A stretch of 64,000 nt of DNA from Kaustia mangrovi (lineage in GTDB: Bacteria; Pseudomonadota; Alphaproteobacteria; Rhizobiales; Im1). Each line of letters begins with the position of its first letter. The first letter of the stretch is position 1. The position numbers were made by a program, and so were the translations under genes. The notes under the pieces are model-generated. The model was not told the DNA's origin and did no database searches. It saw only the letters and a list, made by a program, of their open reading frames with translations. Location: assembly GCF_015482775.1 (NCBI RefSeq), contig NZ_CP058214.1, positions 4,144,501 to 4,208,500 on the forward strand, read 5' to 3'. Shown here piece by piece: positions 40,429 through 52,817 of the stretch.

Positions 40429-40559
40429 GGCGGCCCGCGCGAGGCCTGGCGGCAGGGCGCCCGAGCCCGAATTTCGCCATCCTCGCGGGGTTGCGCCGTG
40501 AGTGGCATAATTTCGACTGATTCGTTTCCGTGTGCTGTCTCCGGGGAGGGGGGCACCGC

Positions 40560-42689
40560 ATGCGAGACCAAGCCGGAGCACCGGACACCGACATGTCAAA
40601 GGTCCACGATCTGTTCGACCGTATCGAGGCCGAGCCTTCGAGCGATGCGCCCCGTCCGCGCCCGGCCGGGACGGCGCGTCCGGAAGAGACCGCACCGGCC
40701 CCGCAGGCTGCCACGCCGGCCCGGCGCAGGGCGGCGCCCGGGGCGGAGCCGGGCGAGGGCTACACCGCCGCCGATATCGAGGTTCTGGAGGGGCTCGAGC
40801 CGGTCCGCCGCCGTCCGGGCATGTATATCGGCGGGACCGACGAGAAGGCGCTCCATCATCTCTTCGCGGAGGTGATCGACAATTCGATGGACGAGGCCAT
40901 TGCCGGCCATGCGAGCTTCATCGAGGTGGATTACGACGCGGAGGGCTGGCTGACCGTCACCGACAATGGCCGCGGCATCCCGATCGACCCCCATCCGAAA
41001 TTCCCGGAGAAGTCGGCGCTGGAGGTGATTCTCACCACGCTGCATGCGGGCGGCAAGTTCGATTCGAAGGTCTATGCGACCTCCGGCGGCCTGCACGGCG
41101 TCGGCATCTCGGTGGTGAACGCCCTGTCGGAGCGGCTGGAGGTGGAGGTCGCGCGCGGCCAGGAGCTCTATCGCCAGATCTATGGGCGCGGGCGCCCGGA
41201 AAGCGGGCTCGACCATGTGGGCCGTGCGCCCAACCGGCGCGGCACCCGCATCCGTTTCCGGCCGGATCCCGAGATCTTCGGGGCGAAGGTGCGCTTCAAG
41301 GCCGCGCGGCTCTACAAGATGGCCCGCTCCAAGGCCTATCTGTTCGGCGGGGTGGAGATCCGCTGGTCGTGCGCCGAAGAGAACATCCGCGAGGGCGACA
41401 CGACGCCGACGCGCGAGGTGCTGCGGTTCCCGGGCGGGCTGAAGGACTATTTGGCGACCGCGCTGGAAGGCCGGCAGCGCGTCTGCGACGACATCTTCGC
41501 CGGCAATGTGAAGAAGCCGGAGGGCCACGGCTCGGTGGAGTGGGCGGTCGCGTGGTTCGCCGGCGACGGCTTTGTGGAATCCTACTGCAATACCGTGCCG
41601 ACGACCGAGGGCGGCACCCACGAGACCGGCCTGCGCGTGGCGCTGTCGCGCTCGCTGAAGGCCTATGGCGAGCTCGTCGGCAACAAGAAGGCCCAGACCA
41701 TCACCGCCGAGGATGTGATGGGGTCTGCCGGCGTGATGCTGTCGGTCTTCATCCGCGAGCCGGAATTCCAGGGCCAGACCAAGGAGAAGCTCGCCACCCA
41801 GGAGGCCTCGCGCATCGTCGACCAGACGGTGAGGGATCATTTCGACCACTGGCTCGCGGGCCATCCCAACCAGGCCAACAAGCTGCTCGACTGGGTGATC
41901 GACCGCGCCGAGGAGCGCCTGCGGCGGCGCCAGGAGCGCGAGGTGGCGCGCAAGACGGCGACCCGCAAGCTGCGCCTGCCGGGCAAGCTCGCCGACTGCC
42001 AGCAGAACGCCGCCCACGGCGCGGAAATCTTCATCGTGGAGGGCGATTCGGCCGGCGGCTCCGCCAAGCAGGGGCGCGACCGCAAGATCCAGGCGGTCCT
42101 TCCGCTGCGCGGCAAGATCCTCAATGTCGCTTCCGCGGGGCGCGACAAGCTCGCCCAGAACCAGCAGATCTCCGATATCGTCCAGGCGCTTGGCTGCGGC
42201 ACGGGAACGACCTATCGCGAGGACGACCTCAGATACGAGAAGGTCGTCATCATGACCGACGCCGATGTGGACGGAGCCCACATCGCCTCGCTGCTGATCA
42301 CCTTCTTCTTCCGCCAGATGCCGGGGCTCATAGACGGCGGCCATCTCTATCTCGCCGTCCCGCCGCTCTACCGCCTCGCACAGGGCGGCAAGACGATCTA
42401 TGCGCGTGACGACGCCCACAAGGACGCGCTGCTCCAGACGGAGTTCTCGGGCCGCGGCAAGGTGGAGGTCTCCCGCTTCAAGGGCCTCGGCGAGATGCTG
42501 CCCGCCCAGCTCAAGGAGACGACCATGAACCCGGCGACGCGCACGCTCCTGCGTGTGGAGATGCTGGAGGACGAGGCATCGACCACGAAGCGTGTGGTGG
42601 AGCAGCTCATGGGCAACAAGCCGGAGGAGCGCTTCCGCTTCATCTCCGAGCGCGCCGAGTTCGTGACCGGCGACGAGCTCGATATCTAG
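40560..42689 (+). CDS. parE: DNA topoisomerase IV subunit B
   Basis: ParE is the ATPase subunit of the topoisomerase that decatenates daughter chromosomes. The 709-residue product has a GHKL ATPase domain (EVIDNSMDEAIAGH, TDNGRGIPIDPHP, SGGLHGVGISVVNALS), a transducer domain and a TOPRIM domain (VEGDSAGGSAKQGRD and MTDADVDGAHIASLL). About 75 residues of low-complexity sequence precede the ATPase domain, more than usual. The ATG at 40560 is set by GGGGAGGGGGG seven bases upstream. ParC is not in the window. Confidence 0.96.
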   Translation: MRDQAGAPDTDMSKVHDLFDRIEAEPSSDAPRPRPAGTARPEETAPAPQAATPARRRAAPGAEPGEGYTAADIEVLEGLEPVRRRPGMYIGGTDEKALHHLFAEVIDNSMDEAIAGHASFIEVDYDAEGWLTVTDNGRGIPIDPHPKFPEKSALEVILTTLHAGGKFDSKVYATSGGLHGVGISVVNALSERLEVEVARGQELYRQIYGRGRPESGLDHVGRAPNRRGTRIRFRPDPEIFGAKVRFKAARLYKMARSKAYLFGGVEIRWSCAEENIREGDTTPTREVLRFPGGLKDYLATALEGRQRVCDDIFAGNVKKPEGHGSVEWAVAWFAGDGFVESYCNTVPTTEGGTHETGLRVALSRSLKAYGELVGNKKAQTITAEDVMGSAGVMLSVFIREPEFQGQTKEKLATQEASRIVDQTVRDHFDHWLAGHPNQANKLLDWVIDRAEERLRRRQEREVARKTATRKLRLPGKLADCQQNAAHGAEIFIVEGDSAGGSAKQGRDRKIQAVLPLRGKILNVASAGRDKLAQNQQISDIVQALGCGTGTTYREDDLRYEKVVIMTDADVDGAHIASLLITFFFRQMPGLIDGGHLYLAVPPLYRLAQGGKTIYARDDAHKDALLQTEFSGRGKVEVSRFKGLGEMLPAQLKETTMNPATRTLLRVEMLEDEASTTKRVVEQLMGNKPEERFRFISERAEFVTGDELDI

Positions 42690-42738
42690 AGCGCCGCGCT
42701 GACACCTGTCTCCAATTCTTGACGTTCGGCCCTCGCCT

Positions 42739-42806
42739 CGTCATTCCCGCGAAAGCGGGAATCCACCTTGCACTCGGTATGGATTCCCGCTTTCGCGGGA
42801 ATGACG
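42739..42806. repeat. Perfect 27-bp inverted repeat (REP-like)
   Basis: Arms 42739-42765 and 42780-42806 are exact reverse complements over 27 bp, separated by 14 bases. Each arm contains its own palindrome, ATTCCCGCGAAAGCGGGAAT and its counterpart. The motif ATTCCCGC-TTTC/GAAA-GCGGGAAT is a widely dispersed bacterial REP type. It follows the parE stop by 50 bp and can act as a terminator. Confidence 0.9.
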
Positions 42807-42909
42807 GGCACTGGCGGATGACGGGCACTGGCGGATGACGGGCACTGGCGGATGATGGGCACTGGCGGATGACGGGCACTGGCGGATGACGGGCAGCAGG
42901 GAATGACGG
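42801..42909. repeat. Tandem array of 17-bp repeats
   Basis: Five complete units of ATGACGGGCACTGGCGG start at 42801, 42818, 42835, 42852 (one change, ATGATG) and 42869. A partial sixth unit follows (42886), and a final GGGAATGACGG (42899-42909) copies the end of the REP arm. Unit starts coincide with the last bases of the inverted repeat, so the array probably grew from it by slippage. Confidence 0.9.
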
Positions 42910-42982
42910 ACAGAGCAGGCCGCATGGCGATCGAGCGGATCGCATACGAATTCACCGTCCCCGGATCGTTCGATCAGGCAAC

Positions 42983-43660
42983 TCACAGCGCCGCGCGATA
43001 GATCTTTCGCCATGTCCTCGCGGTGGCGAGCTCAAGCACGCGCTCCGGCTCGTCGTCTTCGGCGAAGGCGGAGAAATCCGCCTCGGCTGCGAGCGCCGTC
43101 TCGAGCAGGACGTGATAGTCGTCCCGCGCGATCTCGTGGGCCCCGAAGCGGGTGAGGTGCTCGGTGACGAACTGCGTGTCGAGCAGGCGGAAACCGCCGA
43201 ACTTCAGCCGCGCGACCAGATGGACGAGGGCGACTTTGCTGGCGTCGCGCTCGCGCGAGAACATGCTCTCGCCGAAGAAGGCCGCGCCGATCCTGACACC
43301 GTAGAGCCCGCCGACCAGCCGGTCGCCCTGCCAGCACTCCACCGTATGGCAGAAGCCCATGCGGAAGAGCTGGCCATAGAGCGAGCAGATGCGGTCGTTG
43401 ATCCAGGTGGTGGTGCGGCCCGGCTGGGGCTCGGCGCAGCCCGCGATCACGCCGTCGAAATCGCTGTCGACGCGCACGGAGAACGGCTTGTGGCGAATGG
43501 TGCGCGCGAGCCGGCGCGGCACGTGGAAGCGTTCGAGCGGGACGATGCCGCGCTGGTCCGGATCGATCCAGTAGAGCGAGCTGTCGTCGGCACTTTCCGC
43601 CATGGGAAAGATGCCCGCAGCGTAGGCCTTGAGAAGGATCTGCGGCGTGATCGTCGTCAT
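42983..43660 (-). CDS. aat: Leucyl/phenylalanyl-tRNA-protein transferase
   Basis: Aat adds Leu or Phe to proteins with N-terminal Arg or Lys, marking them for ClpS/ClpAP under the N-end rule. The 225-residue protein has the GNAT-like fold and family motifs [49 protein letters not shown] and [17 protein letters not shown]. It follows accC after 24 bp on the minus strand and closes the aroQ-accB-accC-aat run. Confidence 0.95.
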
Positions 43661-49997: not shown

Positions 49998-52817
49998 TCA
50001 ATCGTTGCCCAGGATCCGGCGCTGCCACCAGCCCCGGCGGCGCGGCGCGGGCTTCTCGTCCCTTTCCGCCACGGCGGTGTCGGTCTGTGCGGGCGCAGCC
50101 GCAGGCTCCGCCTCGGCGTCGGCCTCCGCCTCTGCCGCGACGAACTCCTGAGACGGGCTCGTCGCTTCGGCCAAGGCGGGGGCGGGCGCTTCCGGCGCGG
50201 GTGCCGGCTCCACCGTCGTGTCCGCCTCTGCGGGAGCTGCCTCCGCCTCGGCAGGGGCGGCCTCGGCCGCAGCCTCCTCGGCCTTCTTGGCGGCCGTCTT
50301 CGTGGTGCGGCGCGTGCGCTTCTTCGGGGCCGGCTTCTCCGTCTCGTCCTCGCCGGCCTTGGCCTCCTCGGCCTTCTTCTTCCGCGACGCGGCGCTCGTG
50401 CTCTTCGCCTTCGTCGTCCGCTTCCGGCGCGCGGGCTTGGCCGGCTCGTCCGCCTGTTCGGCGGGAGCCTCCTCGGGAGACGCCTCCGCCGTCGCCTCGG
50501 CGGGGGCGGCATCGGCATCCGCAGGCTCCGGGGTCTCGGCAGGGGCCGGCGCTTCGGCCTCTGCGGCGTCGGCCGTCTCCGCCGTCTCCGCCTTCGGCTT
50601 GCGCGACCGCGAGCTGCGGCGACGGCCCTTGGCGGGCGCCTCCTCGCTCACCGTATCGGCCTCCGCGCCTTCGGCACTCTCGGCGGCCGCGGCGACAGCG
50701 GGCTCCTCGGCCTGTTCCGTGCGGGACCCGGTTTCGCCGCTATCGGCGTCCTCGCTATCGGAGGCGGCCGGAGCCTCGTCCTGCTCCCGGTTGTCGCCAT
50801 GGATCTCGTCATGCTCGTCGGCGCGTGTCTTGTTGCGCCGGCCGCCGCGGCGGCCGCGCCGGCGCCGGCGGCGCTTCTTCTGGCCGTCCTGGTCGCGGTC
50901 GCCATCCTCGTCGCCGCCATCGCGGGCTTCGGCGTCCTCCGCCTCGGCCTCGGCCTCGGCCTCGATGTCGGTCTCGGCCTCGGTCTCGTCATCCTCGGGC
51001 TCGTCGGAATAGGCGGAATCGATCTGCACGGCCACGGCCGGCTTGGGCGGCACGATGTTGCGCGCCTCCGCCTTCTCGATCTTGAACTGCGAGGACTTCT
51101 GGTCGGCGCCGGGCTGGATGAAGACGGAGACGCCATAGGCGGATTCCAGACCCAGCACATGGTTGCGCTTCTGGTTGAGCAGGTAGGAGGCGACCTCCGC
51201 GTCGCACAGCACCGTGATGTTCTCGTGGCGGCGCAGGAGATGCTCCTCGATGCCGCGCAGCACCGACAGCGCGCAGGATTCGACCGACCGGATGAAGCCG
51301 TGCCCCTCGCAATGGGGGCACATCAGCGTGGAGCCTTCCAGCATGCCGACCCGCAGACGCTGGCGCGACATCTCCAGGAGGCCGAAATGGCTGATCCGAC
51401 CGACCTGGATACGCGCGCGGTCGTGCTTGAGCGATTCCTTGAGGCGGCGCTCCACGGACCGGTTGTTGCGCTTCTCCTCCATGTCGATGAAGTCGATCAC
51501 GATGAGGCCCGCGAGGTCGCGCAGGCGAAGCTGGCGGGCAACCTCTTCCGCCGCCTCGAGATTGGTCTTCAGCGCGGTATCCTCGATATTGTGCTCGCGC
51601 GTCGACTTGCCGGAATTGACGTCGATGGAGACCAGCGCCTCGGTCTGGTTGATGACGATATAGCCGCCCGATTCGAGCGTCACCGTCGGCAGGAACAGCC
51701 CGTCGAGCTGGCCTTCCACCTGATAGCGGCTGAACAGCGGGCGCGGTTCCTTGTAGGCCTTCACATGCCGGGCGTGGCTCGGCATGAGCATCTTCATGAA
51801 TTCCTTGGCCTCGCGATAGGCGTGGTCGCCCTCCACGAGCACCGTGTCGACATCCTTGGTGTAGAGGTCGCGGATGGCGCGCTTGATGAGGCTGCCTTCC
51901 TCGTAGATGAGGCAGGGTGCGGTGGATTTGAGCGTCAGGTCGCGGATGTTCTCCCACAGCCTGAGGAGATAGTCGTAGTCGCGCTTGATCTCAGCCTTGG
52001 TGCGGTTGGCGCCGGCGGTGCGCACGATCAGCCCCATGCCTTCCGGCACCGACATCGACTTGGCGGCCTCCTTCAGCCGGCGCCGGTCGGAGGCGTCGGT
52101 GATCTTGCGGGAAATACCGCCGCCGCGCGCTGTGTTCGGCATCAGGACGCAGTAGCGCCCGGCAAGCGACAGATAGGTGGTGAGCGCCGCGCCCTTGTTG
52201 CCGCGCTCCTCCTTGACGACCTGAACGAGCAGGATCTGCCGTCGCTTGATGACTTCCTGGATCTTGTAGTTGCGCTTCACCGAGCGCTGGTGCCGGGGCA
52301 CCTCCTCCAGCGCGTCCTCCGCGCCGACGGATTCCACGGAGGAGCCGTTGTCGCCATCCTCCTCGACGCTCTCCGCATCGGCCTTGGTGCTGGCCCCGCG
52401 CTTGCGGCGGCCGCCCTTGCGGGAGCGGCCCTTGGGCTCATCGGCGGCGTCCTCGCCGTCGGACCCGTCGCCGTCGGCCTCGCCCCTGCTGCCGGAGCCG
52501 GCCTCGTCGGGCTCGTCGTCGGCCTTCTGGTAGTTCGCCTCGGCCTCGACCAGTGCCTGCCGGTCGGCCATGGGGATCTGGTAATAGTCGGGATGGATTT
52601 CGCTGAAGGCGAGGAACCCGTGCCGGTTACCGCCGTAATCGACGAATGCCGCCTGGAGCGACGGCTCCACGCGCGTCACCTTCGCCAGATAGATATTTCC
52701 CCTTATCTGCTTGCGCGACGCGGATTCGTAGTCGAATTCCTCGATCTTGTTGCCGCGCAGGGTAACCACCCGGGTCTCTTCCGGGTGGGCGGCATCGAGG
52801 AGCATCTTTGTACCCAT
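49998..52817 (-). CDS. rne: Ribonuclease E
   Basis: RNase E is the endonuclease that starts most mRNA decay and matures rRNA and tRNA. The 939-residue chain has an S1 domain with a long charged insertion (about residues 85-170), catalytic aspartates in SIDVNSGK (near 399) and VIDFIDMEE, and the Zn-link CPHCEGHG near 500. From about residue 590 the chain is acidic and Ala/Glu-rich with arginine blocks (KKRRRRRRGRRGGRR), the degradosome scaffold, ending in a conserved WWQRRI tail. The ATG at 52817 follows GGAGAAG. A 734-bp spacer precedes it, fitting the long autoregulatory leaders known for rne. Confidence 0.96.
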   Translation of the reverse strand: MGTKMLLDAAHPEETRVVTLRGNKIEEFDYESASRKQIRGNIYLAKVTRVEPSLQAAFVDYGGNRHGFLAFSEIHPDYYQIPMADRQALVEAEANYQKADDEPDEAGSGSRGEADGDGSDGEDAADEPKGRSRKGGRRKRGASTKADAESVEEDGDNGSSVESVGAEDALEEVPRHQRSVKRNYKIQEVIKRRQILLVQVVKEERGNKGAALTTYLSLAGRYCVLMPNTARGGGISRKITDASDRRRLKEAAKSMSVPEGMGLIVRTAGANRTKAEIKRDYDYLLRLWENIRDLTLKSTAPCLIYEEGSLIKRAIRDLYTKDVDTVLVEGDHAYREAKEFMKMLMPSHARHVKAYKEPRPLFSRYQVEGQLDGLFLPTVTLESGGYIVINQTEALVSIDVNSGKSTREHNIEDTALKTNLEAAEEVARQLRLRDLAGLIVIDFIDMEEKRNNRSVERRLKESLKHDRARIQVGRISHFGLLEMSRQRLRVGMLEGSTLMCPHCEGHGFIRSVESCALSVLRGIEEHLLRRHENITVLCDAEVASYLLNQKRNHVLGLESAYGVSVFIQPGADQKSSQFKIEKAEARNIVPPKPAVAVQIDSAYSDEPEDDETEAETDIEAEAEAEAEDAEARDGGDEDGDRDQDGQKKRRRRRRGRRGGRRNKTRADEHDEIHGDNREQDEAPAASDSEDADSGETGSRTEQAEEPAVAAAAESAEGAEADTVSEEAPAKGRRRSSRSRKPKAETAETADAAEAEAPAPAETPEPADADAAPAEATAEASPEEAPAEQADEPAKPARRKRTTKAKSTSAASRKKKAEEAKAGEDETEKPAPKKRTRRTTKTAAKKAEEAAAEAAPAEAEAAPAEADTTVEPAPAPEAPAPALAEATSPSQEFVAAEAEADAEAEPAAAPAQTDTAVAERDEKPAPRRRGWWQRRILGND

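Follow-up and report, generated by a model that had tools for sequence, protein, structure and literature searches.

REPs carrying a CGTC tag owe their definition to Di Nocera et al. 2013 (PMC3733652), who give the CGTC-1 type an 8-bp stem that begins with two A/T pairs, a 4-nt loop and tails that are mostly CCA. The paper describes CGTC elements as mostly head-to-head dimers that predominate in alphaproteobacteria and include Neisseria dRS3; the superfamily members 'apparently lack a dedicated transposase', and their mode of spread is left open in that paper. The REPINs of Pseudomonas (Bertels and Rainey 2011, PMC3116915) are likewise symmetric pairs that form one large hairpin and occur with REP-anchored tandem arrays, but they are of the GTAG type and are accompanied by a RAYT. 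The tandem arrays known from these two sources are made of complete elements: in PMC3116915 the REP arrays repeat whole REPs, those of GI and GIII being 72 and 112 bp apart, and the REPIN clusters repeat whole REPINs, while PMC3733652 reports whole REPs or dimers reiterated with their flank. In contrast, the units described below are half-REPs on the tag side, and such arrays are new as far as we found. In the main text of PMC3733652 the words half, partial, truncated and slippage are absent and no half-REP tag-side array appears, and the available text of PMC12306157 (RepRanger) holds nothing on CGTC repeats beyond its reference list; since the literature searched was covered only in part, half-REP arrays are better called 'not found' than 'never described'.

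In the window, that is, the whole stretch of 64,000 nucleotides of Kaustia mangrovi DNA analysed here, a left arm (42739-42765, plus strand) and a right arm (42780-42806, minus strand) were exact reverse complements over 27 bp, separated by a 14-bp spacer (42766-42779), and each arm was itself palindromic with an 8-bp stem and a 4-nt loop, in full agreement with the original prediction of a perfect 27-bp inverted repeat with palindromic arms. As judged from sequence and fold, the CGTC tags point outward and the CCA tails inward, and both arms have the CGTC end, the stem starting with A/T pairs, the 4-nt loop and the CCA-type tail of CGTC-1 REPs. When folded as single-stranded DNA, the 68-nt pair formed one hairpin (−36.1 kcal/mol, z = −12.9), and none of 200 shuffles did as well. 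The same prediction had taken the arms for a REP pair, and this was borne out by the genome searches: the exact 27-bp pattern CGTCATYCCCGCGNNNGCGGGRATCCA occurred at 56 sites in the 4.63-Mb genome (reversed control, 0), and the 20-bp arm core, which matched twice in the window (mean of 0.02 in shuffled sequence), matched at 98 sites genome-wide with up to 3 mismatches (51 forward and 47 reverse, compared to 2 for the reversed pattern), some of these 3-mismatch sites being a second palindrome type with GCTC ends. Since copies of the arm are present throughout the genome, the contrary case named in the prediction, a unique array with no other arm copies, does not apply.

This high dispersed copy number in the genome of the window (hereafter G000) again corresponds to CGTC-1 REPs, as do the head-to-head arrangement, which was seen here and at many others among 55 G000 stretches, and the mostly alphaproteobacterial hosts. 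Judged by the nearest relatives of its ParE, many of which are Hyphomicrobiales or Rhizobiales records, the host of the window is an alphaproteobacterium. Thus, read from its sequence, the locus is a head-to-head CGTC-1 REP dimer, or REPIN-like pair, lying in the gap between the convergent genes parE and aat. It shares with the REPIN-RAYT system the symmetric pair that forms one hairpin, whereas its tag is CGTC rather than GTAG (GT[AG]G) and no RAYT gene was detected in the genome. A RAYT-type transposase had been proposed as something to look for, and here the expectation was disappointed: PF01797 (Y1_Tnp), the only transposase family searched for, had no match in G000, in a search that did detect it in 6 of 14 control genomes, and the best match of a RAYT-like protein query reached only E = 0.012 (residues 121-227 of 228 aa). 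Because no Y1_Tnp gene is detectable in the genome, a RAYT link is not supported.

The parE gene (DNA topoisomerase IV subunit B, 40530-42689, plus strand, predicted start; NCBIfam TIGR01055 parE_Gneg, 778 bits for a cut-off of 723) ends 49 bp ahead of the REP pair, and aat (leucyl/phenylalanyl-tRNA--protein transferase, 42983-43660, minus strand; TIGR00667, 191 bits for a cut-off of 143.6) approaches from the other side, so that the REP pair and its array lie in the gap between them. Three open frames of 89-101 aa, one in each of the minus-strand frames, overlap one another across the pair and the array (42640-43013), and these look like spurious ORFs. Regarding the neighbourhood in relatives, 40 genomes with aat were considered, none of the same genus, 29 of which gave aat loci; parE was adjacent in none of the 29 (about 1.5 kb flank), and aat was adjacent in none of 80 named parE loci (mostly 3.5 kb flank).

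Beside the right arm, the motif ATGA(C/T)G was found seven times on the plus strand, at 42801, 42818, 42835, 42852 (where C is changed to T), 42869, 42886 and 42903, with every step exactly 17 bp. Six 17-bp steps thus span 42801-42902, and the array is closed, as had been predicted, by a last copy of the arm end, GGGAATGACGG at 42899-42909, which is still in the 17-bp register with its ATGACG at 42903. The 17-bp tandem units of the prediction were exact, but their proposed start where the right arm ends was not, the first unit beginning inside the arm at 42801. Minisatellites, the VNTR loci used in MLVA typing, consist of short near-identical tandem units whose number is expected to vary. The array has this character of tandem near-identical units, the TRF program reporting period 17, 5.6 copies and 97% matches over 42801-42895 with the highest score of the window (183); it differs from minisatellites in that its unit starts in a REP arm and in that the spacing of such arrays is constrained. 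Elsewhere in the window, at 50936-50988, there is an imperfect 6-bp / 18-bp tandem repeat of CCTCGG.

With up to 3 mismatches the 17-bp unit matched 7 times in the window, compared to a mean of 0.48 and a largest value of 3 in 100 shuffles, and the 5 of these with at most 1 mismatch were the array itself. Genome-wide, the unit at up to 1 mismatch occurred only in this array, and looser matches, 55 in all, were near the control (39). Since the arm pattern recurs across the genome and the unit does not, the arms belong to a dispersed family and the array is confined to this locus. One interpretation of the unit is that it consists of the tag-side arm half GCGGGAATGACG, cut down by 2 bp to GCGGATGACG, followed by GGCACTG; with strict matching, 0 bases agreed upstream of the satellite in this array, so that the half-REP reading would require a 2-bp deletion common to the units.

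Among the 149 genomes of the order, 17 carried the 27-bp CGTC-1 pattern, with the highest counts in G000 (56), G087 (55), G040 (38), G056 (35) and G038 (12), and none of three genomes of the same family that were searched had it. In the 55 G000 stretches, other REPs were likewise followed, about 20 bp farther outward, by incomplete copies of their outer end. The recurrence of such satellites was therefore counted at 206 tag ends from four REP-rich genomes (G000, G087, G040 and G056), at loci picked for REPs and not for arrays, with identical contexts and ends too near the stretch edge left out. An extra ATGACG was found within 46 bp at 17 of the 206 ends and 17-22 bp outward at 12, whereas 179 control hexamers of the same composition gave means of 1.71 and 0.27, respectively, none reaching the observed counts (maxima: 13 within 46 bp, for GATGAC, which overlaps the motif, and 7 at 17-22 bp). 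Partial satellites within 40 bp were present at 7 of 75 tag ends in G000, 4 of 62 in G087, 4 of 36 in G040 and 0 of 33 in G056; two of the seven in G000, which are among the twelve cases at 17-22 bp, are not independent of each other, being the paralogous pair of locus L055 described below.

Wider searches for a REP end followed, after 2-32 bases, by a partial end gave matches in 27 of 387 genomes of the class (reversed control, 1 match) and 291 matches in 30 of 397 genomes of the phylum (reversed control, 3 matches), many of these broad-pattern matches not lying beside a REP. Clear arrays adjoining a REP had units of 21 bp in G181, 19 bp in G600 and 22 bp in both G564 and G582. The array in the window is accordingly one case of a recurrent structure. 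The richest genome, G557 (1.5 Mb, from another class of the phylum), had 228 matches (reversed control, 0), with many different units of 18-26 bp, many of them 25-26 bp long and including the loop (for example C3:5060-5137, C24:5743-5973 and C43:7467-7578; loci L399-L402 and L419-L447). G557 also has 33-bp tandem units that hold whole REPs. The corresponding tail-side pattern, one letter shorter than the tag-side pattern, matched 54 times, in 10 of the 397 genomes. G557 accounted for 45 of these matches, and of the 10 that were listed for it, 9 include a whole REP. When G557 is set aside, the tag side had 63 matches versus 9 for the tail side (sums by hand), and in G000 alone 8 versus 0. Because the tail side is inside the dimer, this scarcity of tail-side arrays could reflect a lack of room.

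For the anatomy of the unit we used 61 non-redundant REP-anchored cases from loci L041-L095, L266-L337, L339-L354 and L356-L447, taking only REP-adjacent matches from the class and phylum searches. L338 and L355, being duplicates of G000 stretches, were left out, as were loci L236-L265, satellites that were full REPs, ends followed by fewer than 60 bases and repeats of the same 40-bp context. The spacing was 17-26 bp in 49 of the 61, compared to 19 expected if it were uniform over 9-40 (p about 4e-15, with imperfect independence of the cases, several of which come from G557). When the match was read back from ATGACG into the REP, it ended after 1 base in 15 of the 61 and after 6 bases, at the stem/loop junction, in 14, the 1-base stop being an A/G that the pattern or scoring itself grants. 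The 31 clearest duplications were those with a spacing of 17-26 in which 5 or more of the 8 flank bases agreed. Among them, the commonest read-back length was 6 bases (10 cases), followed by 2 (6), 1 (4) and 5 (4); their period peaked at 22 (9 cases) and 19 (8) and was 20 in just 4, and the unit included 8-10 flank bases in 16. The first 8 flank bases were identical at 0.64 within a locus and at 0.30 between loci. Since flank identity is higher within than between loci and the copied part is the tag-side end, the arrays evidently arose in situ by duplication of the tag-side end of the REP, in many cases that entire half, together with local flank.

A change in unit number was captured at L055 (G000:C1:1528690-1529430), where two paralogous segments of about 330-360 bp are 84% identical. 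Both carry the same REP pair and the same 22-bp half-REP unit, which is present twice in one and once in the other, and their alignment has one 22-base gap within the array. As the paralogues differ by one 22-bp unit, comparison of the two demonstrates gain or loss of a unit in this genome, at L055 and not at the window's own array. Together with the near-identity of the 17-bp units, this lends indirect support to the original prediction that the array had grown by slippage.

As for how such arrays arise, we think it rather likely that hairpin-guided replication slippage built the window's array in place at the right-hand tag end of the dimer. During copying of the region, one REP would fold as a hairpin, and the growing end would then slip back by about one hairpin length (the hairpin is 20 nt), so that the tag-side half-stem, the tag and 8-10 nt of flank would be copied again; once two copies were present, ordinary slippage between direct repeats could add or remove units. 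Duplication in place, its direction, its narrow spacing, the frequent break at the stem/loop junction and the change of unit number are evident from the sequences, and the spacing of the partial tag-end copies, narrow in several genomes, is near the 20-nt hairpin length. Similar arrays stand beside palindromes of this kind in other bacteria too, which suggests that it is the folded palindrome itself that makes arrays grow. A strict slip of one hairpin length was rejected, as it predicts a period of exactly 20, whereas the peaks were at 22 and 19; since, in addition, the 25-26 bp units of G557 include the loop, the simple slip model is incomplete. Against hairpin-guided slippage also stand 10 of the 31 clearest cases, in which the match ends after 1-2 bases, near the tag, and G056, which had no satellite at its 33 tag ends. 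In the case of GTAG-type REPs, Nunvar et al. doubt whether array differences can be explained by slippage alone (PMC2817692). Hairpin-guided slippage is nevertheless favoured over the action of a RAYT or chance slippage.

Ordinary slippage at a direct repeat that happened to lie next to the REP, with no role for the palindrome, would suit the near-identical, minisatellite-like units (97%) and the steps of exactly 17 bp, but it is unlikely in our view, because REPs whose flanks differ repeatedly show partial copies of the tag end, on the tag side and at a narrow spacing, and chance repeats would not recur in this way at REPs.

We give little credence to the proposal that a Y1 (HUH) transposase, of the RAYT type or another, makes a cut at the REP tag and rejoins the ends, the array being a by-product of failed mobilisation. 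Such enzymes are reported to cleave GTAG-type REPs at the tag (PMC3733652, PMC6006769), and RAYTs have been proposed as drivers of REP array changes (PMC2817692). In the order, Y1_Tnp was detected in 20 of 149 genomes, and it was commoner among those bearing the CGTC-1 pattern (6 of 17) than among the others (14 of 132; raw hand count); the 10 of 31 clearest duplications whose match ends within 1-2 bases of ATGACG would also fit a cut near the tag. On the other hand, the commonest single break in the 31 is the stem/loop junction, PF01797 is absent from the window's genome, and among the five pattern-richest genomes only G040 has it, where the 3,330 bases around the gene contain a single 1-mismatch match to the stem pattern, which is no CGTC REP. 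As a separate observation, G088 has 25 Y1_Tnp matches, several fragmentary or with internal stops, and one CGTC-1 pattern site.

Equally doubtful is a dedicated activity that processes CGTC REPs by opening the hairpin near its apex and acting again about 8-10 nt beyond the tag, and of which half-REP arrays would be the footprint; if it existed, it would be the missing mobilising machinery of the transposase-less superfamily.

Another explanation draws on BoxC-type motifs: the REP stem and a purine-rich flank (a GGGAA-TGACG-AAGGG mirror) would form an intrastrand triplex that disturbs replication and leads to instability. Holder et al. 2015 (PMC4666352) associate intrastrand triplex motifs with instability in E. 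coli, and the likeness to BoxC lies in the possible third strand and the small local instability, although BoxC is another sequence family and the triplex fit is weak here. The first flank base was a purine at 97%, 92%, 83% and 67% of the tag ends in G000, G087, G040 and G056, respectively, and the mirror score over the 206 ends was 3.46, compared to 3.28 (sd 0.046) for shuffled flanks. This excess is small, however, and full 5-triad matches (20 versus 12.4 expected) stayed within the shuffled maximum of 22. A purine was also the first base on the tail side in 98% of cases in G087, 94% in G040 and 100% in G056 (25% in G000), so that beginning with a purine does not set the tag side apart, and satellites were also found beside flanks without a purine tract, e.g. 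TTTTAAAAAAAC and TTCCTTCGTGATGA. We therefore regard a triplex with the purine-rich flank as possible and weakly favoured, with a small chance of accounting for the array. Purine richness beyond the CGTC tag (on the strand ending in ATGACG) was uneven along the flank.

The position of the array between convergent genes, a context among those where REPs predominate (PMC3733652), would fit selection for it as a cluster of binding sites or as an element that ends transcription, but this is most improbable, given that no terminator-like site was found in 42550-43050, that the array strand folded no better than shuffles (z = −0.31) and that the unit at up to 1 mismatch is nowhere else in the genome.

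With hairpin-guided slippage as the favoured reading, the array is probably neutral and of variable unit number, a by-product of a folded mobile-type repeat. A recurring, directional and geometry-constrained array at the tag end would be a physical record of how the cell handles a folded repeat, and the birth of arrays makes it measurable which stem, tag, flank and enzyme are needed. Half-REP arrays also indicate where one may look for variable-number loci in genomes with many CGTC REPs.

Two further arrangements were seen in the loci collected. At L410 (G582:C63:5500-7500), 32-bp tandem units of whole REPs and 20-bp half-REP units occur within 2 kb of sequence. In G000 (C1:3107500-3115000; L066 and L067), CGTC-like REPs are accompanied by a second type of palindrome, GCTCGCTCCCGCGAAGGCGGGAGCCCAG, in two opposed sets of three units spaced about 310-330 bp apart, and single cases of it were observed in L092 and L094.
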